Part shown: in pieces, positions 5,211-53,429 of the stretch
Layout of the letters: each line of letters begins with the position of its first letter
Position numbering within the stretch: position 1 is the first letter of the stretch
From: a virus
Length of the DNA stretch: 54,031 nucleotides
Reading direction: 5' to 3' (one strand)
Virus record (IMG/VR): IMGVR_UViG_3300021180_000001
Span: 1-54,031 of that record
Notes under the pieces: model-generated
Told to the model about the DNA's origin: nothing
What the model saw: only the letters and a program-made list of their open reading frames with translations
Database searches by the model: none
Made by a program: the position numbers and the translations under genes

Positions 5211-5234
5211 GGGAGATAGCAGTTTGCTTCTCCC
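5211..5234. terminator. Bidirectional terminator hairpin
   Basis: GGGAGA plus AGCA (with one bulged T between them) pairs with TGCT plus TCTCCC around a GTT loop, giving a ten-pair stem. It lies exactly between the convergent genes ending at 5187 (+) and 5242 (-), and T-rich sequence follows on the + strand. Confidence 0.75.
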
Positions 5235-5241
5235 TTCCCTT

Positions 5242-5775
5242 TTATTGCTCTGCTATTTTCTCTTTATCCTGATTATCAATAGCAAATGCTATGCAAACAA
5301 AGGCATCTTCAATTAATGTTTTATCTCTCATCAAATCAGGAGGGCAATCAGACCTGCTATAGGTAGATGGAGAAAAAAGACCATTGTGCAATCGACAAAA
5401 CCAAATTTTTATGGGACCTAATATTGCAACATTTTTCTTTAAATCCACTTTCCAAGGAGCTGATGGTCCGCCTCGCTCTTTTACTTTCTTCAAAATGGTA
5501 TTAAGCTGCATAGCGTTATGCCGATAAATTTTGATTTTCTCAGCAATCTCATCAAAATCACTTAATACGCTATCTATCCCATCTGGACGCCATGGCATTC
5601 CAATTCGGTGTAAACGTAACCACGCCTGAAGTGTTTGTTCGGCAGGCCCTGTCATCTTCGCAGAATTATCAACCCATCTCATAACTGTACGTATATCAAC
5701 TGATAAAAGCTTTGCTACTTCTGTTTTGGTTAGTACTAGCTCATTTAAAGTGTTTATAAGAGCTTGATTGAGCAT
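5242..5775 (-). CDS. Helix-turn-helix transcriptional regulator
   Basis: The protein has 177 residues when started at the ATG whose codon ends at 5775, which has GAGGA six bases upstream; a longer in-frame start at 5820 lacks such a site. Residues about 13-37 (LTKTEVAKLLSVDIRTVMRWVD) form a helix-turn-helix. The C-terminal part is unfamiliar and has no S24 peptidase motif. It is the only minus-strand gene in the structural arm and is divergent from the capsid operon. A strong promoter with an embedded inverted repeat lies just upstream, so autoregulation and control of the late leader are plausible. Confidence 0.7.
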   Translation of the reverse strand: MLNQALINTLNELVLTKTEVAKLLSVDIRTVMRWVDNSAKMTGPAEQTLQAWLRLHRIGMPWRPDGIDSVLSDFDEIAEKIKIYRHNAMQLNTILKKVKERGGPSAPWKVDLKKNVAILGPIKIWFCRLHNGLFSPSTYSRSDCPPDLMRDKTLIEDAFVCIAFAIDNQDKEKIAEQ

Positions 5776-5806
5776 AATGTCCTCATAAAAAGTGAATAAT
5801 AGATTA

Positions 5807-5836
5807 ATTATAGAAGACAATATGATAAATTGTCAA
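5807..5836 (-). promoter_or_regulatory. Promoter of the HTH regulator gene
   Basis: On the minus strand TTGACA (5836-5831) and TATAAT (5812-5807) are separated by 18 bases. Both hexamers match the sigma-70 consensus exactly. Confidence 0.75.
5816..5834. promoter_or_regulatory. Candidate operator (inverted repeat between -35 and -10)
   Basis: GACAAT and ATTGTC form a perfect six-base inverted repeat with a seven-base spacer, placed within the regulator's own promoter. The position suggests a repressor site, probably for the adjacent HTH protein. That link is inference. Confidence 0.5.
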
Positions 5837-5872
5837 TTCTAAATTTAGTCTAATGCTTAAATATAAATACTA

Positions 5873-5899
5873 TTGACATAACGAATTATCTGTTATATT
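5873..5899 (+). promoter_or_regulatory. Promoter of the capsid operon
   Basis: TTGACA at 5873-5878 is followed after 15 bases by an extended -10 (TGT then TATATT at 5894-5899). The spacing is short, but the TG extension compensates. It points to the gene at 6051 and diverges from the regulator promoter. Confidence 0.6.
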
Positions 5900-5940
5900 G
5901 TTGGTCATGAAAGAGAGGACCAAACTCATTAAATAGGTCA

Positions 5941-6018
5941 GATAGTCAACTATCCACCGTGTGTAAACACGCTAAATCAAGACGGACCAGAGTCTTAAAA
6001 CGGTCGGGATTTTTTCCC
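5941..6018 (+). ncRNA. Structured 5' leader of the capsid operon (candidate)
   Basis: Four consecutive small hairpins can form in the roughly 145-base leader: GATAGT/ACTATC (5941-5954), CGTGT/ACACG (5958-5971), AAGAC/GTCTT (5979-5996) and GGGA/TCCC (6006-6018). The leader precedes the decoration and capsid genes. It might stabilise the message or control translation; no known RNA family is recognised. Confidence 0.4.
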
Positions 6019-6050
6019 TGTCACAGTTGAATTGATTAGCGGAGTAGTTT

Positions 6051-6743
6051 ATGTACGGTTTTAATCAAAATACCCCTAAGGGTTTACAGCCATCTCAATA
6101 TTTAAATGGCTCAACTTGGTCGGGTCAAACAGGTCAATATTACGTCCTTTCTGGTTATGCTAATTCTCTTTTCCAAGGAGACCCGGTTACGATGCTTAAT
6201 ACCGGTGGTATTGGCATTGGAGTAGCAGGCTCAGGCATTATCGGAGTTTTTTGGGGCGTTACTTATCAGGATTCTACAGGGAATTATGTTTATTCTCCTT
6301 TTTGGACTACAGGAACTGTAACTTTTCAAGCACAGCCTGCAATTGCTTATGTCATTGATGATCCAAATGTTCTTTTTGACATACAGATTGCTTCAAGCGC
6401 TGGCGCTCTTGTTGATGCTCCAGGATTAACATTAACTCAATTAAATAATAACGCTAATTTTGCCCTTGGTGCTGGTACTACTTATAACCCAGTTAATGGA
6501 GTAACACCTTTAACTAACCCAACAGGTGGTTCAACACTTACTGGACAATCAGCTTTTTATTTAGATTCTACAACTATTCAAACTGGGCAGGCTGCATTCA
6601 GTTTGAAAATAATTCGCCTTACTCCTAATCCGACTAACGTATTTTTTAGCGCTGGTCCTCCAATAGTAGGTGCATTCAATAACGCATTAGTCCTTATCAA
6701 CAATGACATCTACAAAGGTGGCACTGGTACGGTTGGAATTTAA
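6051..6743 (+). CDS. Capsid decoration or minor head protein
   Basis: The 230-residue protein is rich in Gly, Thr, Asn and Val and predicted to be nearly all beta, with few charged residues. It lies 12 bases before the capsid gene behind the same leader. Beta-rich genes at this position often encode decoration or head-stabilising proteins. A GCGGAG site precedes the ATG. I do not recognise a specific family. Confidence 0.55.
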   Translation: MYGFNQNTPKGLQPSQYLNGSTWSGQTGQYYVLSGYANSLFQGDPVTMLNTGGIGIGVAGSGIIGVFWGVTYQDSTGNYVYSPFWTTGTVTFQAQPAIAYVIDDPNVLFDIQIASSAGALVDAPGLTLTQLNNNANFALGAGTTYNPVNGVTPLTNPTGGSTLTGQSAFYLDSTTIQTGQAAFSLKIIRLTPNPTNVFFSAGPPIVGAFNNALVLINNDIYKGGTGTVGI

Positions 6744-14979: not shown

Positions 14980-17900
14980 GTCTAAATCAGCTATCTTCTC
15001 CCACATTTCCTACTACTACATTAATTGCAGATTTTGGGGTTAATCCATCTCAGCCTGTCGATTCTATTCCAAGCATTACTAAAGTTAATAATGTACCAGT
15101 TTCTGTTGCTTTAGAAATTCAATCTGAAACAGGTAGTCTTCTAATTCCTAGATTAAATCAAGACCAAATAGATTCATTAATTACTACTGATGGAATGTTA
15201 ATTTACAACGCAGATACCCTTAATTTTAATTTTAGACAGGGAAATACTTGGGTAGCATTTGGAACGGGTGCTGGTAATGGAGATGTTATAGGACCTGGAG
15301 AATCTATTAGTGGAGATATAGTAATATTTTCTGGTACTAGTGGAACTTTAATAGCAGATAGTGGTGTTAGCATTACTGATGTCCCGCGACCATCTCCATT
15401 AAGAGGTCCATTAGTAAATGTTATTCAATTAAGCGGAATTGGAATATTAGCATTTGATGATGCTGCAGCTACTAGCGGAATAGGTAATATTGTTGTTGGC
15501 ACTGAACAAGTATTAAATTTATTTGTTCAGACAGGCAGTTTTTTGAGAAATTCAGTATTCACTGATGGTGTTAATACAGCTCCTACTAGCTTTTCTGCTT
15601 TGGTTGAATTGAGTTCAACTACTGGTGCACTTCTTTTATCAAGATTAACGACTACTGAAATAAATGCATTAAATCCAGTTGATGGAATGATGGTTTATAA
15701 TTCAACAACTAATCTTTTTAATTTCTATCAAAATGGTGGATGGACACCAGCAGCTCAAGGTGGGACGGTCAGTAGCATTACTGCTGGAACTGGTTTAACT
15801 GGTGGGACAATTACGAGTACAGGGACTATCGCATTAGCAAATACTGCTGTAACGGCTGGTTCTTATACTTATCCTTCTTTAACTGTTAATGCTCAGGGTC
15901 AGATTACGACAATTTCCAATCAAACCGCAGTTACTAACATTATGACTGGAACTGGTTTAACAGGTGGTCCTATCACAACAGCAGGTACCATTGCTTTAGC
16001 GAATACTGCGGTTAGTCCTGGTAGTTATATAAATTCTAATATTACAGTGGATGCTCAAGGTAGAATTACTTCTGCTTCTAATGGGACTTCTGGTATTACG
16101 TCAGTCGTTGGAACTACAAATCAAATAACTGCATCTGGTACGCCAACAGCCACAATAGCTATCGCGAATAATCCTATTATTCCTGGAACTGCAAGCATCA
16201 CAGTCCCAGTAGGAACAACCGGACAGCGTTCTGGCTCTCCAGTTATTGGAATGGTTCGATATAATACGAGCATTCTAGCTTTAGAAGCTTATGTAAATGG
16301 TTCATGGCAAGCTATTAGTATTGCAGAAGCTAATTTTATTTTAGCACATCCAAATTCTAGTTTGTCTAATGCTCAAGCTATATCAGATTTAAATGTATCA
16401 AATGGACTTTTGAAAACTTCTCTTACTGATGACAGTGTTATAGCAATTGCTCAACCTGATGTTGATTATGTAACCGCTGAAACTTTTTTAATAATTTCAA
16501 ATGAAGTTATTGCATTAGATTCGCAAGTCAATAATCCTGCAACTGGTTTACCTACTACTTTTGCTGTTGCGACAGGCGCTGCGGCTGCTGCTTCTGCGGC
16601 TACTACTATTTTAGGAGAAGGCACATTTATTGTGCAGGAATCTTTATTTGGTTTGGAAAATGCTCAAAGTTTAGGCAATATAGGAAGTGGAATTGTAAAA
16701 AATAATAACAATGGATTTGGTACTGGAACTTTAAGTATTGCTTCTGCTGGAAGTGATTATGGGACTGTTAGTTCTGTTTCAGCCAGCACAACTTCTGCTG
16801 GTCTTATTATAAGCGGCTCTCCTATCACAGGCTCAGGTACTTTAACCTTTACTTTAGATGCAGAATTACAAGGCTTGGCTGTTTTAGCGGTTAATGGAAT
16901 TATTGCGAGAACAGCTCCTGGTGTTTACACTCCTGTAACAATCACTGGAACATCTAATCAGATTTCTATAACGAATGGAGATGGTGTTTTAGGGAATCCT
17001 ACAATTTCTATTTCTAGCAATCCGACTATTCCAGGCGCAGGCGGTTTAGTTGTGCCAATGGGAACAACTGCTCAACGTCCAGTTTCTCCGACAAATGGAA
17101 CTATTCGTTATAATACAGATATTGGTAAGTTAGAAGCATTTATGAGTAGTGTCTGGGTACAACCAGCGGGTGGTACCGTAATGAGCATTACCGCAGGCGC
17201 TAATTTAACGGGTGGTACAATTACTACAACAGGAACAATAGCTTTAAGTACTACTTTAGTAGGCTTAGTTTCTGCTGCAATTGGAAACTTATCTTTATCA
17301 GCAGGAACTATATTAAATAGTTTAACTAATGGAAGTATTGTTATAGCTCCAAATGGTACTGGAGAATTACAAAGTAATAATAATATTAATATTCAAACTG
17401 GTAATAAATTAAAGTTTTTTAATTCTTCGAATACTCAAACAGTTTCATTTCAGGCAGGAACATTGATAGCTAGCACTGCTTATACTTTGCCTACTGCATT
17501 TCCAACTGCAAATGGACAGGCTTTAACTTCTACGACCGCAGGTATTCAAAGTTGGACTACTCTTGCGCCAAATACGTCTGATTATATATTGAAAACAGCC
17601 GATGCAAATCTCCCAAATGCACAAAGTTTAGGTGCACTGACAACTGGATTATTGAAAAATACGGTCTCTACAGGTATTGGAACTTTATCAACTGCCACAG
17701 CAGGAACAGATTATTATTCACCAGGTCATCCAACAACGATTGTAGATACATCAGGCGGAAATGGAAATTTTTATATAGGAACAGGAACAGGTACAAATAA
17801 TGGGACCTCTAATTTTTTTATTGGATTAGGTGTTGGTGCAAGTTCCACAGCTTTATCTTTCCAAAATGTTGGTGTTGGTATTGGTTGTCTCTTAAATCTA

Positions 17901-34133: not shown

Positions 34134-34460
34134 CACTTTAATAAGCTCAGAACTATGTCTTGTTTACTTCAATTCCGCTTGAAACTATTGATCAGATCGA
34201 CTTTTAGTTTTTTCATGCACTTTTGTCAAAAAATTTATCAATATGCAAGCATATTCGTAGCAGATCGACATGAAAGATTTATCTAAAGTGCCTTTTCTTT
34301 AGAAACCACTGTATAATATTTTGTTTGTTTTTCTAATAACTAACTAATTCGGTTTAGCATTTGTTTTCCTAATTTTTACAGTCTGGGAATTATTACCTGG
34401 GTATTAGCCAAATAAACATTCGAGAATGCCCCAAATCTTTCCATACAGGCGTTTTTAATG

Positions 34461-34527
34461 AAAGGTGCACCTTTGTATACCCAATCCATAAAAACTCTCA
34501 AATATCGAAATATTTAAGGTTTTTATG
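34461..34527. repeat. Palindrome and cruciform in the origin region
   Basis: A perfect 14-base palindrome AAAGGTGCACCTTT occupies 34461-34474. At 34487-34527, CATAAAAAC pairs with GTTTTTATG, enclosing AAATAT/ATATTT around a CGAA loop. These may be protein-binding or extrusion sites linked to replication. Confidence 0.55.
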
Positions 34528-34639
34528 CTTATCTGTGTTTTTGTATAGATATATTTTTTTCTTGTCTAAGGAGCGCGCATAGGCGCGTGCACACGCTCAC
34601 GCACACACGCTCGCACTCGCGGAGTTATGTCTATGGCCT

Positions 34640-34960
34640 AAACATTGCGATGTAGCCTAAATATCTAAAATTATTTTATATTTATTATTATTATTAAACT
34701 AATATAAGGTGTAGGTATACAGTTTGATCATAGGTCTGTGGATAAGTCCGTTGTAGGTCTGTGGATAACCCTGTGGACAAGTCATGTATAACTTTTTTTT
34801 TAAATTCTCAAAAAATTGAAATTTAGAGTGTCTGTGGATAAGTATATTTTATCATTCTTAACTAAATAATAGGTATTTATATAACTTTAATTAATATTGT
34901 TTGTGGTTTGACTAAATTAATATTCTGATGTAATATGTTATACAGTGTTTTTTTAAACTA
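34640..34960. other. Probable origin of replication with DnaA boxes
   Basis: Three perfect DnaA boxes read TGTGGATAA (34737-34745, 34760-34768, 34833-34841), with a one-mismatch copy TGTGGACAA at 34772-34780. They lie in an AT-rich stretch, between the recombination operon and the first accessory gene, in a gene-free interval of almost 1 kb. No replicase gene was seen, so recruitment of host DnaA is a reasonable reading. Confidence 0.7.
34908..34936 (+). promoter_or_regulatory. Promoter of the accessory arm
   Basis: TTGACT (34908-34913), a 17-base spacer and TAATAT (34931-34936) lie 36 bases before the ATG at 34973. Confidence 0.6.
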
Positions 34961-34972
34961 AGGAGAGTATAA

Positions 34973-36367: not shown

Positions 36368-36567
36368 TGAAGATAGTATGTCAAAATTGTCATTCATCAG
36401 ATTTTATAGAAGTATCTAGCACAATGAAATTGGAAGATTTTGTAAATGATTTCGAACATAAGTATTATACCTTAATCTGTAATAAATGTAAGATATATAC
36501 AGAGTTAGATGGTAAGGATAGAATTGAACAGCAAAAGGTAATAGGAGAGAAAAATGGTTCACTTTGA
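36367..36567 (+). CDS. Zinc-ribbon protein
   Basis: The 66-residue protein has CQNC near residue 5 and CNKC near residue 38, the spacing of a small zinc ribbon. The strands between them fit. It overlaps the AAA+ gene that follows by 14 bases. Confidence 0.6.
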   Translation: MKIVCQNCHSSDFIEVSSTMKLEDFVNDFEHKYYTLICNKCKIYTELDGKDRIEQQKVIGEKNGSL

Positions 36568-37477
36568 AGAATTAAATGACGGAAGTAATAAAAGGAAAGT
36601 ATTATTTAATCAACAAAATTCTGTAAAATCGTTAATAAAAGACTTTATAGATGCCAGATGGCCTGTTCTGATAGAAGGTCCTACTGGAATAGGTAAGAAT
36701 TATCTTGTAGAAGTTCTTGCGGAAGAAGAATCTAAAAAAATTATCCGAGTAAATTTGAATGTAAATGTTTCTCAGGAAGACTTATGGGGCCAAAATGTCC
36801 TCATTAAAGATGGAGAAGCATCTATTATTAAATTTAAAGATGGACCTGTAGTAAATGCTATTAAGAATGGATATTGGCTTTTATTAGATGAAATAAATGC
36901 TGCATTGCCAGAAGTATTGTTTTCATTACATGCGTTATTAGAAAGAAATAAGAAAGAAATTTATGTTCCAATTTTACAAGATAATTTACAGGTTCACGAA
37001 GAGTTCAGAGTTATAGCAACTATGAATCCATCTGATGAATATTTTGGAACTAGAAGTCTAAATCAGGCATTCTTAAGTAGATTTATGATAGTTGAAATGG
37101 GAATTCCTTCATTATCAGATATGGCCATTATACTAAAAGAATTTTATACAGATAAAGAAATAGAGACGACTGTTTTTGTGTTGACAAAGTTAATAGGGGA
37201 GTTAAATAACTGGAAAATTAAAATGAATATCTCTATTAGAGATTTTGAAAAAGTTCTAGTTTTGTTGAAGACAGATGGATTGTATATATCAGATCACTTA
37301 GCCTCTATATTTAGAGATTATATTAGATTACTTCCAGAAAAAGCTCTAGAAACTTTTAATAAAAATAAATTTGAAAAAAATGAAAAAGAAATGGGAGCTT
37401 TAGGAAAATTCCTAAAAAATCCAGAAAAATATATAAGTTTGATTGAAATGCTTGAAAAATCTATGGAAAAATCATGA
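36554..37477 (+). CDS. MoxR/CobS-like AAA+ ATPase
   Basis: The 307-residue protein has a Walker A GPTGIGKN at 42-49, Walker B WLLLDE at 108-113, a sensor strand VIATMNPS and an SRF arginine-finger region. The Walker A ends in Asn instead of Ser/Thr, which is unusual and may weaken magnesium binding. MoxR-type ATPases work with VWA proteins to remodel or insert cofactors into targets, and the next gene encodes such a partner, overlapping by four bases. AGGAG precedes the ATG. Confidence 0.8.
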   Translation: MVHFEELNDGSNKRKVLFNQQNSVKSLIKDFIDARWPVLIEGPTGIGKNYLVEVLAEEESKKIIRVNLNVNVSQEDLWGQNVLIKDGEASIIKFKDGPVVNAIKNGYWLLLDEINAALPEVLFSLHALLERNKKEIYVPILQDNLQVHEEFRVIATMNPSDEYFGTRSLNQAFLSRFMIVEMGIPSLSDMAIILKEFYTDKEIETTVFVLTKLIGELNNWKIKMNISIRDFEKVLVLLKTDGLYISDHLASIFRDYIRLLPEKALETFNKNKFEKNEKEMGALGKFLKNPEKYISLIEMLEKSMEKS

Positions 37478-38328
37478 ATCCAACTATACTTTTGAAATTA
37501 AGGAAATTATTCCAAGTTAATACAGCACCATTATTATTAGCTGGACAACCACGCGGAAAAACTATCAGCAGTTTTTGTTTAGGAAAGGCTTTAGTTAATT
37601 CTAAAAATATTTATAATAGATTTATAGATAAAACATTAGAAGAAACTTATAAGGTTGTTATATTAATTGATGCAAGTGGTAGCAGAACTAATGGGCATCC
37701 TTCCGAAAAAGATAGTAAACATATAACCAAGCAAATAATAGAAATGTATTATAGTTTAAAAATAATTGTTGGAAAAGAGAATTTAAAAATTTATTTATTT
37801 AATCGAGTAATTGAAGAAGCATCAAAAATATTAGGGATAAAAATATTTTCTTATACAAACATTAGAGAGTTTACTATGGATTTAGGAGTAAAACAAGCAG
37901 AAGAAGCGAATAAAAAATTATGTCATTGGATGATTATGAAAAATGGAAGAGAAGGAGCTAATTGTGGTGGGAATCATGATGGATATGCCTTAGATTTTAT
38001 TTCTAAGCTTATGTGGTGGGGAAGTTTACCGAATAATAGAAAGTTAATTATTCATATTTCCGATGGACGACCTTCTTGTGATTATCCACATTGTGGATTA
38101 CCTGGATGTTTTCAGAGTACTGAAGAATTAGAAATAGATTATAAATATGTTGTTAAAAATTTATTAGAAAATAAGTTTAAATTATGTGGTTTAGGAGTAG
38201 ATAGAGAAATGGATGAATATTATGGAAAGGAAAATTGTGTGGAAACAAGTGAAAAACCTCAGAAAATGTTGGAAGATTTTATAGAATTATTTTCAAGTCA
38301 GATTAAGGAAAATAGGAGAAGTGTATGA
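37474..38328 (+). CDS. VWA-domain partner of the AAA+ ATPase
   Basis: The 284-residue protein has the MIDAS motif DASGS at 66-70, a later conserved region ANCGGNHDGYALDF and HISDGRPSCD. This is the arrangement of CobT-like VWA proteins. The ATGA overlap with the ATPase makes a two-gene module. The phage target is unknown. Confidence 0.75.
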   Translation: MNPTILLKLRKLFQVNTAPLLLAGQPRGKTISSFCLGKALVNSKNIYNRFIDKTLEETYKVVILIDASGSRTNGHPSEKDSKHITKQIIEMYYSLKIIVGKENLKIYLFNRVIEEASKILGIKIFSYTNIREFTMDLGVKQAEEANKKLCHWMIMKNGREGANCGGNHDGYALDFISKLMWWGSLPNNRKLIIHISDGRPSCDYPHCGLPGCFQSTEELEIDYKYVVKNLLENKFKLCGLGVDREMDEYYGKENCVETSEKPQKMLEDFIELFSSQIKENRRSV

Positions 38329-41128: not shown

Positions 41129-41157
41129 CATTACGGGTGGGGTTATAGTTGGAGCGG

Positions 41158-41183
41158 GAGTAAAAAATAATGGCTTACAAAAA
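41158..41183 (+). repeat. Echo of the 41663 gene start
   Basis: This 26-base stretch is identical to 41651-41676, the leader and first codons of the DUF5681-like gene. Here it runs into a stop after eight codons (MAYKNRGK). A degenerate copy lies at 41381-41410. The copies flank the first two array genes. Confidence 0.8.
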
Positions 41184-41196
41184 TAGAGGTAAATAA

Positions 41197-41376
41197 GTGA
41201 GCTATTATTTTCTTTTTCGCTTTGGTTGTGGTGAAGGAAATTACTTTAGTAATGGTGATGGATATGGAAATGGTTATGGTTATGATAGTGATTTATGGGT
41301 CTATGATGACAATGGCTTTGATAATAACAGTGGTGGTGATAATGGGTATGGAGATGGTGACATAGTATGCGATTAA
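41197..41376 (+). CDS. Array member 1
   Basis: The 59-residue protein uses a GTG start after AGAGGT. It reads MSYYFLFRFGCGEGNYF then GDGYGNGYG repeats and ends DGDIVCD. The stop lies in the ATGCGATTAA junction, but the frame started there (MRLNCSRIKNNDL) is truncated after 13 codons. Confidence 0.6.
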   Translation: MSYYFLFRFGCGEGNYFSNGDGYGNGYGYDSDLWVYDDNGFDNNSGGDNGYGDGDIVCD

Positions 41377-41662: not shown

Positions 41663-42154
41663 ATGGCTTACAAAAAAGGTGAATCTGGTAATCCTTTAGG
41701 CAGACCTGCTGGCCTTGCTGAAATAAATTGGAAGGCGCTAAAAGCGTGTCCTGAAGTAATGGATGAGTTAATTTCCTTAGCTTTAGATAGAGATGTGGAT
41801 AATAAAATAAGAATAGCTGCCATGAAAGAGGTTTTAGATAGAGGAATGGGTAAATCTATTCAATCTATTAGACTTGAGGATAAAACGGTCCAAGAACCAT
41901 CTAAAATGGCTACGCAGGACTTAGAATTGATGCTTCAAGGTGGAATAGATATTCTTAAAGAACAAATACGCCAACAGGTTAAAAGTGAGATTTTAGGTAG
42001 TCAAATGATTATCGAAAAAAAAAGTATTACATCAGATAATAATGTGGTAAGCTACGAAGGTGATGTAGTTAACATAGAAGTTAACGAAAACGAAATGGGT
42101 GAAATGAAACATAGATTGGAATGTAACTTAACAGAGGAGAATAGTCATGAGTAA
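41663..42154 (+). CDS. DUF5681-like protein (possible small terminase)
   Basis: The 163-residue protein starts MAYKKGESGNPLGRPAGLAE, the KGxSGNPxGRPxG signature of DUF5681 proteins, which often sit near phage terminase genes. A helical region VDNKIRIAAMKEVLDRGMGK follows. If it is the small terminase it is far from the large subunit (51858), which would be unusual. It sits inside the glycine-rich array, and its 5' end has been duplicated upstream. Confidence 0.6.
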   Translation: MAYKKGESGNPLGRPAGLAEINWKALKACPEVMDELISLALDRDVDNKIRIAAMKEVLDRGMGKSIQSIRLEDKTVQEPSKMATQDLELMLQGGIDILKEQIRQQVKSEILGSQMIIEKKSITSDNNVVSYEGDVVNIEVNENEMGEMKHRLECNLTEENSHE

Positions 42155-49793: not shown

Positions 49794-50301
49794 ATTTACT
49801 AAAGAAAACATAAAGGCTGTTAAAAAACGTATTGTTTCGACTGATTCATCAGTTATTCTTAAGAAAGAGCAGAAAAAAAAGGTTAAAGTTAGCAAGGACC
49901 TTAGTGATGCTGTTGACCATGGAATAGGAAGTTATAAAAATAAATCTTCTAAAAAACATATAGAAAATTCTAAAAGGATTGAAAAAGAAAATAATATTCT
50001 TCGGGAACAAATTATCAAATATTTAGAAGCTAATTCACATAAATATTATATTTTCATGAGTTCTCCTTCTGCTTTTATAGTTGGAAAAAGTCAAAAATTA
50101 ACTACTTATTCAGTCAATGAAAATAGTGTTTTTATGCCTCGTGAGCATAAAGAGACTAAAAGTTATTTAACTTTAATATTAATATATTATGGAAATATGA
50201 TTTATTCAATAAAAGATAAGTTAGAAAATACACTTATTGACTTAGGTTGTGAAGTTGTTCATATTAGGTCAAGTAGTGAGATTCATCCTAAACTGGAATA
50301 A
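49780..50301 (+). CDS. Basic hypothetical protein
   Basis: The 173-residue protein overlaps the regulator by 14 bases. The N-terminal 75 residues are very Lys-rich, followed by an alpha/beta domain (YYIFMSSPSAFIVGKSQ, YLTLILIYYGNMIYS). No family recognised. Confidence 0.6.
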   Translation: MKKIKFTKENIKAVKKRIVSTDSSVILKKEQKKKVKVSKDLSDAVDHGIGSYKNKSSKKHIENSKRIEKENNILREQIIKYLEANSHKYYIFMSSPSAFIVGKSQKLTTYSVNENSVFMPREHKETKSYLTLILIYYGNMIYSIKDKLENTLIDLGCEVVHIRSSSEIHPKLE

Positions 50302-50303
50302 AT

Positions 50304-50621
50304 ATGTTGGAGCTTAGACTTAAACCACTTACCGGAAATATGCCTTCTGATGAAGAGGAAGAACGGGCCTTAAAAGAAATAAGAGCCGCCTATGAAGAAT
50401 ATGAAAGATTATTAGAAAAATTAGAAAATTTAAAGTCTAAATATGGACAAACCATTTGTAAGCAACCTATTGCCATTTCATATGAAGATGTTAAACAAGC
50501 TGAAGATGAGTTAAAAATCTCAATAAGTAAATTTGATGAGTTAACTAATAAAAATCCATATACCTGGAATAAAGAATTTTGGAATATTATTAATCGAGAG
50601 AAAAAAAGATTTACAGTTTGA
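50304..50621 (+). CDS. Coiled-coil protein, possible small terminase
   Basis: The 105-residue protein is strongly helical (residues 18-45 EEEERALKEIRAAYEEYERL), with a second helix at about 65-85. It is the last gene before the non-coding region and the large terminase, so a packaging role is possible but unproven. Confidence 0.5.
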   Translation: MLELRLKPLTGNMPSDEEEERALKEIRAAYEEYERLLEKLENLKSKYGQTICKQPIAISYEDVKQAEDELKISISKFDELTNKNPYTWNKEFWNIINREKKRFTV

Positions 50622-50638
50622 AATAATATGGCATAATA

Positions 50639-50732
50639 TTAAATTCTTCTAAAGGTTTGGTTTGCAATCTCCTTCCTTTAGGAGGAAGGTCCATATTTCT
50701 TATCTTAGTTGGTTATGTGGGATTTATGGACC
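50639..50732 (+). ncRNA. Structured element copy 1 (candidate RNA)
   Basis: It starts TTAAATTC and contains a CCTTCC/GGAAGG hairpin, then GGTCCATA pairing with TATGGACC across a loop of about 30 bases. It shares most of its sequence with copy 2 but has about 16 extra bases in the second loop. An AT-rich promoter-like stretch precedes it, and GGGCCC followed by a T-run lies downstream. Confidence 0.55.
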
Positions 50733-50789
50733 ATCATTTAAGATTCTCATAATCTGGGCCCTTTTTTATTTCATTCATTCTTGAAATTA

Positions 50790-50817
50790 CCGTTTGGAAC
50801 TCGATAATTCCAAACGG
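50790..50817. terminator. Perfect ten-pair hairpin
   Basis: CCGTTTGGAA and TTCCAAACGG flank an eight-base loop, between the two structured elements. No T-run follows, so a protein site or processing signal is as likely as a terminator. Confidence 0.5.
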
Positions 50818-50859
50818 AACCATCATAAACATATACTTACATATCAAAATATAGTATTA

Positions 50860-50941
50860 TGTTAAATTCCCCTAAGGTTGGCTTTGATAACTCCTTTCCT
50901 TGGGCGAAAGGTCCATATTTCTTATAGGATTTATGGACCAT
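50860..50941 (+). ncRNA. Structured element copy 2 (candidate RNA)
   Basis: Homologous to copy 1, with hairpin CCTTTC/GAAAGG where copy 1 has CCTTCC/GGAAGG, a compensatory change of one pair. The GGTCCATA/TATGGACC stem is kept exactly. The preceding AT-rich stretch (TACATATCAAAATATAGTA) is also similar to one before the gene at 51137. Confidence 0.55.
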
Positions 50942-50988
50942 AATTAATTCCAAGTTAAAACTGATATTTTTAACTACGAGTTTTATTG

Positions 50989-51040
50989 GTCGGCATTATA
51001 CATGCGCATTTTTCAGTGTTTCTTTCCATTTAATGCCGAC
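50989..51040. repeat. Inverted repeat with long loop
   Basis: GTCGGCATTA (50989-50998) and TAATGCCGAC (51031-51040) are perfect complements 32 bases apart. They lie upstream of the outer-membrane protein gene. Confidence 0.6.
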
Positions 51041-51136
51041 TTATAAGGTTATTAGCAATTAAAATAACATAAATGTAGACATACATATTAAAATATAGTA
51101 ATATAGTAATTGGTCAAAAATAATTGGAATAATCTC

Positions 51137-51823
51137 ATGAAAAAACTATCCATTTTTGCTTTATCAATATTGCTACCTTCCCTTGTCGTTGCTGATTTTA
51201 ATCCCTATATCGGGACAGATATTCAAATGCGCCATATGTCTTTTGAAAGAAATTATGGAAGGAATCTATTTGGCAGAACTTCACTAGGTGGAAGCTTGTA
51301 TACTGGATTAAATGTTTTTCCTAATTTTGGAGTAGAAGTTGGATATGACTCCATGCCAACCCAATCAAGAGAAAAAACCTTAGCTTCTGGAACTATATTT
51401 TCAGGCTCTAAAAAAGTGACGCCAGACTTGTCTCCTATTGTTTTTCAGACAAAAGAAGATATCAGAGGACCCTACATTAACCTATTAGGGCTTTATCCTA
51501 TTTCAGAAGTTTTTCCTCTAGAAATCATAGGTTCGTTAGGTATTTCCTTTTTAAGGGCTCATTTTGAAAGAGCAGTTATCTGCGCCGGGAATTATAATGT
51601 TGATATGAATAGAATTTATAAAACCCATAGAAATGTGATTAAAATAGGTACAGGATTGCAATATGGACTAACTGACTATATTAAAGTTAGGACTAGTATC
51701 TATTTTTCTCAAACTAATAAATTGAATGCCTGTTCAATCGAAGGATTTTGCGGAGTTCTTACAGATGAAATAAAGCCTAATAATTCTCTATTATTTGGAT
51801 TAGGGTTAATTTGGGGTTTCTGA
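51137..51823 (+). CDS. Outer-membrane beta-barrel protein
   Basis: The protein has 228 residues from the ATG at 51137, which opens a signal peptide (MKKLSIFALSILLPSLVVA, likely cut before DF). The earlier in-frame start would bury this signal. Alternating strands and a final Phe after GLGLIWG are typical of OmpA/opacity-type eight-stranded barrels. It probably goes to the host outer membrane, where it could block superinfection or change the surface. It resembles barrels of intracellular gammaproteobacteria in style only. Confidence 0.75.
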   Translation: MKKLSIFALSILLPSLVVADFNPYIGTDIQMRHMSFERNYGRNLFGRTSLGGSLYTGLNVFPNFGVEVGYDSMPTQSREKTLASGTIFSGSKKVTPDLSPIVFQTKEDIRGPYINLLGLYPISEVFPLEIIGSLGISFLRAHFERAVICAGNYNVDMNRIYKTHRNVIKIGTGLQYGLTDYIKVRTSIYFSQTNKLNACSIEGFCGVLTDEIKPNNSLLFGLGLIWGF

Positions 51824-51857: not shown

Positions 51858-53429
51858 ATGGCGGAAGAGCTTTCCGCCCGTAGAAAAGCAGAAATATCCC
51901 TTCATCAGTTTACAAAACAAGCATGGCCACAAATAGAAGGTAATAGAGCATTTGTAGATGGATGGCATATCCAAGCTATTTGTGAACATTTAGAGGCTGT
52001 AGCAAGAGGAGAAATACGTAGACTTCTTATTAATGTTCCACCTAGAACAATGAAGTCTACTTTAGTATCTGTTGTGTTCCCAGCTTGGCTTTGGATAATA
52101 AGGCCCGAAGAACAATTCGCCTATGCTTCTTATTCGTCCGCTCTTTCCATGCGAGATTCTGTTAGATGCCGCCGTCTCATTTCTTCTCCCTGGTATCAAA
52201 CTCGTTGGGGTCATATATTTAATTTAGTTGGCGACCAAAATACTAAAAGTAGATTTGAAAATAACCAAATGGGATATCGCATTTCATTTGGCGTTAATTC
52301 TTCTGTTATTGGAGAAGGCGGTAATATCCTATGCGTAGATGACGGTAATAATGCCATGGATGGAGAATCCGAAACAGTTCGAGAAAGTACCAATCTCTGG
52401 TGGGATACAGCCTGGAGTATTCGCCTGAATGACCCGAAGACAGGCGCTTTAATTGCCGTTCAGCAACGTATCGATGAATTAGATTTATCTGCCCATATTA
52501 TGGAAAGTGATATTAATAAAGAATGGACTTATCTTATCCTTCCTATGGAATTTGAAAGCTCTAGACGAGCTAAAACGATTATCTTGCCTTCTACTAACGG
52601 AAAGATATGGCAAGACCCTAGAGAGAAAGATGGAGACCTTTTATGGCCAAATCGGATAGGGGAAAAAGAATTAAAACAACTTAAAGCAAGTCTTGGCTCT
52701 GAATATGCTATAGCCGGACAATTGCAACAAAGACCTGCTCCAGAAACGGGCGGTATAATGAAAAAATCCTGGTTCCAATTATGGAAACATCCTTCTCCAC
52801 CTAATATGTTTCAAGTATTACAAAGTTGGGATACGGCATTAGAGGCCAATGAAATGAATGCTTATTCAGCTTGTTCAACCTGGGGGCTGTTCTACGATGA
52901 GCATAAGGTTGTGAACGTCATACTTTTGGGGGTCTGGAGAGGTAGGGTCGAATATCCAGATTTGAGGAAGATGGCTAAAAGACTTTATGAAGATTATCGA
53001 GATGATGGAAGTATAGAAATAAAACCAGACGGTGCTCATATTCCTGATATTGTTTTAGTTGAATCTAAAGTATCAGGTATTTCGTTAGTCCAAGACTTAA
53101 GAAAAACGGGAATCATGGCTGTTAAATTTGACCCTAATAAATATGGGGATAAAATATTAAGGGTAAGAAAAATAACTCCTATATTAGAGGCGGGAAGAGT
53201 TTGGGTGCCTGCTAGACCTCCTGGCTATACAACTCTTAGAAGCTTTGCAGATACTTTGGTTCAAATGTGTTCTATTTTTCCCAATGCAGAGTCAAGAGAT
53301 TTAGTAGATAGCATGACTCAAGTACTGTTGAGATTGGTTTATGGTGGATATTTAACCCATCCTGATGATGAGCCAAGAGAATCTGGTTCTACTAAGCCTA
53401 AGCATACATTCTATGGAGTAGAAAAATAA
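51858..53429 (+). CDS. Terminase large subunit
   Basis: The 523-residue protein has an ATPase domain with Walker A PPRTMKST (61-68), Walker B ILCVDD (157-162) and a C-terminal RNase H-like nuclease (WDTALEANEMNAYSACSTWG, VLVESKVSG, LVDSMTQVL). Met65 replaces the usual Gly before Lys in the Walker A. It packs concatemeric DNA through the portal and cuts it. The small subunit is not evident next door. Confidence 0.9.
   Translation: MAEELSARRKAEISLHQFTKQAWPQIEGNRAFVDGWHIQAICEHLEAVARGEIRRLLINVPPRTMKSTLVSVVFPAWLWIIRPEEQFAYASYSSALSMRDSVRCRRLISSPWYQTRWGHIFNLVGDQNTKSRFENNQMGYRISFGVNSSVIGEGGNILCVDDGNNAMDGESETVRESTNLWWDTAWSIRLNDPKTGALIAVQQRIDELDLSAHIMESDINKEWTYLILPMEFESSRRAKTIILPSTNGKIWQDPREKDGDLLWPNRIGEKELKQLKASLGSEYAIAGQLQQRPAPETGGIMKKSWFQLWKHPSPPNMFQVLQSWDTALEANEMNAYSACSTWGLFYDEHKVVNVILLGVWRGRVEYPDLRKMAKRLYEDYRDDGSIEIKPDGAHIPDIVLVESKVSGISLVQDLRKTGIMAVKFDPNKYGDKILRVRKITPILEAGRVWVPARPPGYTTLRSFADTLVQMCSIFPNAESRDLVDSMTQVLLRLVYGGYLTHPDDEPRESGSTKPKHTFYGVEK

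Follow-up and report, generated by a model that had tools for sequence, protein, structure and literature searches.

Tandem structured elements upstream of an outer-membrane-protein gene in a low-GC phage: candidate sibling small RNA genes

The window analyzed here is a single IMG/VR virus record of 54,031 bases, derived from a low-GC phage. Its major capsid protein aligns with five phage capsid proteins at 39-48% identity, and the 21 records listed as capsid protein matches extend down to 27% identity. The gene for the terminase large subunit (Terminase_6C; 45% identity to Roseobacter phage CRP-901) is located on the forward strand at 51858-53429. It is preceded on the same strand, at 51137-51823, by a gene encoding an outer-membrane beta-barrel protein, for which the match to Pfam OmpA_membrane lies just above the threshold (24.6 bits, cut-off 21). 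Upstream of this pair is a gap of 488 nt (50622-51109) in which neither strand contains an ORF of at least 50 aa; a 105-aa ORF borders it on one side, and the OmpA-like gene, followed by the terminase gene, on the other. A sequence-only reading of this DNA had described two structured elements that sit alone in this position, upstream of the outer-membrane-protein and terminase genes. That placement holds, and all the sequences quoted in that reading were found in the DNA by direct inspection.

Several other regions of the window have features of their own. Positions 5850-6050, 5' of the capsid-region gene at 6051, contain a promoter-like TTGACA and a leader that is hairpin-rich by eye. At 36554-38328, an AAA_5 ATPase gene (Pfam and PHROGs matches), which we take to be MoxR-like, is followed by a gene without a family match that presumably corresponds to a VWA-type partner, which it resembles. 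Between 43886 and 46312, small ORFs follow one another in a row, overlapping or adjacent; most of them start with MRL, and they are rich in Gly, Asp and Tyr/Phe (FGDGYGYG type); GC skew in this region reaches 0.6, and the ORFs look like a tandem family of repeat proteins.

The two elements in the gap are homologous, as had been proposed: a repeat search gives 81% identity over 52 nt together with a second block of 18 matches in 19 nt, and in a self-comparison of the gap the elements are 78% alike over 79 nt (E 1e-14). Not a base differs between them in the stretch AGGTCCATATTTCTTA, nor in the stem GGTCCATA/TATGGACC, also correctly identified beforehand, which forms the second hairpin, P2, of each element on the forward strand. 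In element 1 (P2 at 50688-50732), GGTCCATA at 50688-50695 pairs with TATGGACC at 50725-50732; in element 2 (P2 at 50910-50939), the same arms lie at 50910-50917 and 50932-50939, and the apical part of the hairpin is 15 nt longer in element 1 than in element 2. The first hairpin, P1A, occupies 50644-50686 in element 1, where 50644-50655 pairs with 50675-50686 in the minimum-energy fold and stays paired as the folded prefix grows. In element 2 it is found at 50867-50908 on the same strand, with 50867-50877 pairing with 50898-50908 and one C/C mismatch. The P1A loop is large in element 1 and contains CUCCUU in both elements. The 5' arm of P1A, situated directly 3' of the promoter-like DNA, is UUCUUCUAAAGG in copy 1 and UUCCCCUAAGG in copy 2, and is predicted by RNAfold to pair with CCUUUAGGAGGA or CCUUGGGCGAA. 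Two perfect 10-bp hairpins are also present on the forward strand, one between the elements (50790-50817, CCGTTTGGAA/TTCCAAACGG) and one 3' of element 2 (50989-51040, GTCGGCATTA/TAATGCCGAC). In a list of perfect stems of at least 9 bp with loops of up to 40, no others have 5 G or C in an arm.

The proximity of the large terminase gene raises the question of whether the gap acts as DNA, in the form of packaging (pac/cos) sites, operators or a replication origin. The repeated dyads and the AT-rich character of the gap would fit such a role, but the two arms of P2 are separated by 29 nt in one element and 14 nt in the other, unlike an operator dyad, and the gene that probably encodes the small terminase subunit lies 9 kb away, at 41663-42154 (DUF5681-like, with a score below the Pfam cut-off). 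A better candidate for an origin is found at approximately 34.7-34.85 kb, where there are three TGTGGATAA sites, and we regard a DNA-level role for the twin elements as quite unlikely. The candidate origin lies in a 686-nt ORF-free gap (34287-34972) that has near copies of TGTGGATAA around 34.73-34.85 kb in addition to the three sites; this sequence is DnaA-box-like, and the gap is likely to be the replication origin.

The 15-nt difference in P2 is a multiple of three and one reading frame is similar in both copies, as might be expected if each element encoded a short hydrophobic peptide (copy 1, around NLLPLGGRSIFLILVGYVGFMDHH; copy 2, around LLSLGERSIFLIGFMDHN). We give this very little credence: only TTG starts are available, with no convincing ribosome-binding site, in element 2 the frame is immediately preceded by an in-frame stop, and within the P2 half the third positions of codons are no less fixed than the others.

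For the first hairpin, the sequence-only reading had selected a different stem, here termed P1B, in which CCTTCC (50671-50676) pairs with GGAAGG (50684-50689) in element 1 (50671-50689, forward strand) and CCTTTC (50893-50898) with GAAAGG (50906-50911) in element 2. This choice is not upheld. P1B is incompatible with P1A and with the two bottom pairs of P2, and it belongs to the minimum-energy fold of neither copy, the longer P1A stem winning by 9-11 kcal/mol (the penalty for forcing P1B is 8.8 kcal/mol for copy 1 and 11.1 for copy 2). The compensatory change that drew attention to P1B is nevertheless there: one pair has changed from C-G to U-A and all six pairs are kept, so that the alignment of this stem contains one double change and five unchanged pairs. 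It is the only compensatory change between the two sequences, with none in P1A or P2; the 11 pairs of P1A comprise four one-sided changes, one broken pair and six unchanged pairs, and no double-sided change.

How much weight this single pair can bear depends on when the stem is chosen. A double change in P1B, had that stem been named beforehand, has a chance of about 1% (0.0135 and 0.011). Among random descendants of element 1 with the observed number of substitutions, a kept stem of at least 6 bp that includes a double change is present in 661 of 2000 and in 330 of 1000. Because about a third of such descendants show one, a single compensatory pair proves little if the stem is picked afterwards, and here it is close to what chance would give. 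The proposal that the covarying pair points to a selected RNA structure is plausible, and still the best reading, but not for the reason originally offered, since the pair lies in a stem that is not of minimum energy and one double change is weak with two sequences. The two sequences likewise do not present the several independent compensatory changes that would mark a structured RNA family.

Simulated copies are more informative about the structure as a whole, with the proviso that these nulls place substitutions at random and are based on two sequences. Among 200,000 of them, at least 10 of the 11 P1A pairs are kept in 4.5%, P1B remains whole in 4.4%, and both hold in 0.2%. Element 2 folds at -26.7 kcal/mol, as against a mean of -17.8 for random descendants of element 1; descendants as stable as element 2 number 73 of 3000, or 81 of 3000 when substitutions are confined to their halves. 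Structure has been retained better than chance, and selection is modestly favoured. It may be instead that a segment containing a promoter and a hairpin was duplicated in tandem and that the likeness of the copies reflects recent descent and constraint on promoter sequence, with no selected RNA function. The ease with which one double change arises by chance agrees with such a neutral history, but the retention of fold stability and of both P1 stems above expectation does not, and neither does the distribution of the 15 substitutions in the aligned elements, 12 of which fall in the P1 half and three in the rest, leaving P2 and its arms nearly invariant. We regard neutral duplication as rather unlikely.

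The folding of the region as a whole also departs from chance. In a scan of 540 segments of 100 nt across the window, those starting at 50640, 50740, 50840 and 50940 rank 5, 31, 11 and 12 by fold z-score, and a segment starting exactly at element 2 (50862) ranks 34 of 540. Four segments elsewhere outscore the best one in the gap; the strongest z-score of the scan, -5.8, belongs to 41140-41239. When folded in full with their flanks, the elements have z-scores of -2.2 and -3.0, and the same stability is reached by 3 of 200 and 1 of 200 shuffles, respectively. By themselves, the core folds are weaker (z -2.05 and -1.46; 7 of 200 and 17 of 200 shuffles as stable).

Promoter-like DNA precedes each element. 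A sigma-70-like promoter on the forward strand at 50610-50637 (TTTACA, 16 nt, CATAAT, with TG before the second hexamer; 10/12) ends 6 nt 5' of P1A of element 1. Directly 5' of element 2, and reaching its P1A, is a promoter-like AT-rich repeat (50824-50865), and a third such sequence, 81% identical to the second, precedes the outer-membrane-protein gene at 51068-51109, both on the forward strand. The 20-nt core shared by the second and third repeats occurs, with up to three mismatches, only at those two sites in the window. A consensus scan of the region found nine promoter-like sites as against 6.2 in shuffles, so that these sites are leads and a single match is weak. An ordinary Rho-independent terminator was not found 3' of either element in a scan of 50200-51500, in which the only stem detected was inside element 2.

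A terminator-like structure could, however, form in element 1 by another route. The forward-strand sequence at 50755-50767, TGGGCC followed by C and then TTTTTT, can pair alternatively with GGTCCA at 50688-50693, thereby excluding P2. The fold with this GGUCCA/UGGGCC stem is 1.3 kcal/mol above the best fold (-32.5 vs -33.8), and it represents 6% of the predicted ensemble, as compared with 93% for P2. Attenuators and riboswitch expression platforms use mutually exclusive terminator and anti-terminator stems, and element 1 resembles them in having mutually exclusive stems, one of which abuts a U-run. The elements would then be regulatory leaders: transcripts from the first promoter, and perhaps the second, would head for the outer-membrane-protein gene, with element 1 choosing between P2 (read-through) and the GGUCCA/UGGGCC stem with U6. 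The small energetic cost of the alternative is in keeping with this, as are the mutual exclusion of P1A and P1B and the rarity of such sites: when T-runs of at least six were tested for an abutting stem of at least 5 bp, with four G-C pairs, within 100 nt, the element 1 site was one of only two that qualified among 128 in the window. A switch of this kind is the most interesting alternative, yet we consider it on the unlikely side. P2 dominates the ensemble and forms first, direct reading of element 2 reveals no equivalent of the T-run stem, promoter-like DNA lies between the two elements, and a promoter-like repeat of its own precedes the outer-membrane-protein gene. In contrast to known attenuators and riboswitch platforms, there is no known aptamer family, no second example in element 2 and no downstream gene tied to the switch.

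A more elaborate version, which we think very unlikely, would assign the pair to a novel class of switching RNAs in phages. P1A and P1B have both been retained although only one of them can form at a time, formation of P1B opens the base of P2, and the P2 arm of element 1 can shift to the U6 stem; a trigger (a host RNA or protein) that captured the 5' arm of P1A would refold the RNA downstream and thereby control transcription in the direction of element 2 and the outer-membrane-protein gene.

Relatives of the elements were sought at several levels. The best blastn hits were at E 0.2 for the gap against phages and E 0.3 for the element pair against plasmids. The P2 pattern has no match in viral contigs and two in genome contigs, both of which lack P1 and were judged to be chance. 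Likewise, GGATTTATGGACCATNATT is absent from viral contigs, and of 25 viral loci containing AGGTCCATATTTCTTA, which were checked for the P2 partner only, none has it within the next 74 nt. Looking for close relatives by means of the terminase and outer-membrane protein alone likewise gave none. A covariance model built from the two sequences, and thus of low power, gave best non-self E values of 1.2 (80 loci), 2.1 (80) and 1.6 (79), none of them credible, in terminase- and capsid-related loci, the first and last of these sets having some contigs in common. In a set of nine loci its best value (E 0.22) fell on a locus picked by pattern, and 19 whole related records gave no match. The sequence-only reading had named a lack of further covarying homologues, together with a lack of transcripts, as what would speak against it; no credible homologue of this kind turned up in 160 + 79 related loci and 19 whole records, and no conserved aptamer shared by several phages or bacteria emerged from these related loci and records. 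Rfam has no match at gathering score anywhere in the window. The best sub-threshold match is of element 2 P2 to sar RNA (RF00262; 22.7 bits vs a gathering score of 43, E 0.044). A literature search found no paper on the element, which is no proof of absence.

Loci of related phages came from two terminase-based scans (80 + 80 loci) and a capsid-based scan (80 loci). Among 296 ORF-free gaps of at least 180 nt, the window's included, self-comparison found no similar twin elements outside the window; several repeats in the gaps of other relatives appear, by eye, to lie in repetitive coding sequence. One relative (L210) has a 78% near-repeat (GTTTCTACGCAACTTAAAAGCGT) at 16012-16066 and 16147-16205 of an ORF-free gap, and two others (L014, 1620-2151; L016, 1096-1668) have homologous ORF-free gaps of more than 500 nt with several hairpins by eye, unlike the elements described here. 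tblastn detects distant homologues of the outer-membrane protein in two of the 80 loci of the last terminase scan (L240, 12788-13465; L212, 13545-14300; 25-26% identity) and, the window's own aside, in none of 172 earlier loci. The L240 gene has its own TTGACA-type promoter just upstream, and no twin elements were seen in the sequence before the homologue in either locus. In L014 and L015, another beta-barrel gene lies directly 5' of the terminase gene (5221-5919 in both; ORFs and Pfam). What recurs near the terminase gene in relatives is thus an accessory outer-membrane gene, not the RNA elements. That L240 and L212 retain the outer-membrane protein without the elements, and that relatives at about 40-60% terminase identity have no homologues of them, would also be consistent with neutral duplication.

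The observed homology, fold signal, placement of promoter-like DNA and absence of long ORFs are best explained, in a tentative reading that falls somewhat short of probable, by a tandem pair of sibling small non-coding RNA genes in an accessory-gene locus. Since no relatives of the elements were found, their function has to be inferred. One unit comprising a promoter and an RNA would have been duplicated to give two related genes. Each RNA, with both its ends predicted, would be made from a sigma-70-like promoter ending about 6 nt 5' of the first hairpin and would fold into P1A, with the conserved CUCCUU in its large loop, and then into P2, whose sequence is invariant. The sequence-only reading had suggested small RNAs, immunity RNAs or regulatory leaders; the first and last are the two leading readings, and nothing indicates immunity RNAs in particular.

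Pairs of this type are known in bacteria, as in AbcR1/AbcR2, PrrF1/PrrF2 and OmrA/OmrB (PMC4211561). The elements share with them the arrangement of two homologous units, about 70-80% alike, in one intergenic region, as well as similar predicted hairpins and promoter-like DNA before each copy (to be read against the nine sites vs 6.2 in shuffles noted above). They differ in being located in a phage and known from sequence alone, in lacking an ordinary Rho-independent terminator, with a long-loop alternative in element 1 only, and in having no Rfam match at gathering score. One parallel is NmsRA/NmsRB of Neisseria, which are tandem small RNAs, 70% alike, with UC-rich anti-Shine-Dalgarno stretches, and which demonstrate that the design works (PMC5362039); a similar exposed UC-rich stretch is predicted here. 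Short phage-encoded RNAs also have precedent, several of which base-pair, including sar of P22, OOP and aQ of lambda, VpdS and PreS (PMC12197685). Of these, sar is antisense to a phage gene; here, no antisense partner was found.

The CUCCUU of the loops is complementary to Shine-Dalgarno sites, and the most likely action of the putative RNAs would be to base-pair, through the UC-rich loop, with ribosome-binding sites of the infected host. At the phage's own 71 start sites, loops with shuffled flanks pair at least as well as the two real loops in 193 of 200 and 165 of 200 trials, and at the start of the outer-membrane-protein mRNA pairing is no better than chance (shuffles at least as good in 112 of 300 and 146 of 300). 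With no preference for either, the target, if the loops pair at all, is probably in the host. Sequestration of a Shine-Dalgarno sequence by P1 was also considered and rejected: AGGAGG is present in element 1 and absent from element 2.

If the elements are not transcribed, they are a useful caution: about a third of the time, two repeats can be expected to differ by one compensatory pair when the stem is chosen afterwards. If they are, they would be phage RNAs in the tandem-sibling layout known from bacterial small RNAs, located beside an outer-membrane-protein gene of a type found repeatedly near the terminase gene of related low-GC phages, and would offer an entry to RNA-level control of the host in a phage group in which no studied member is close to this phage.
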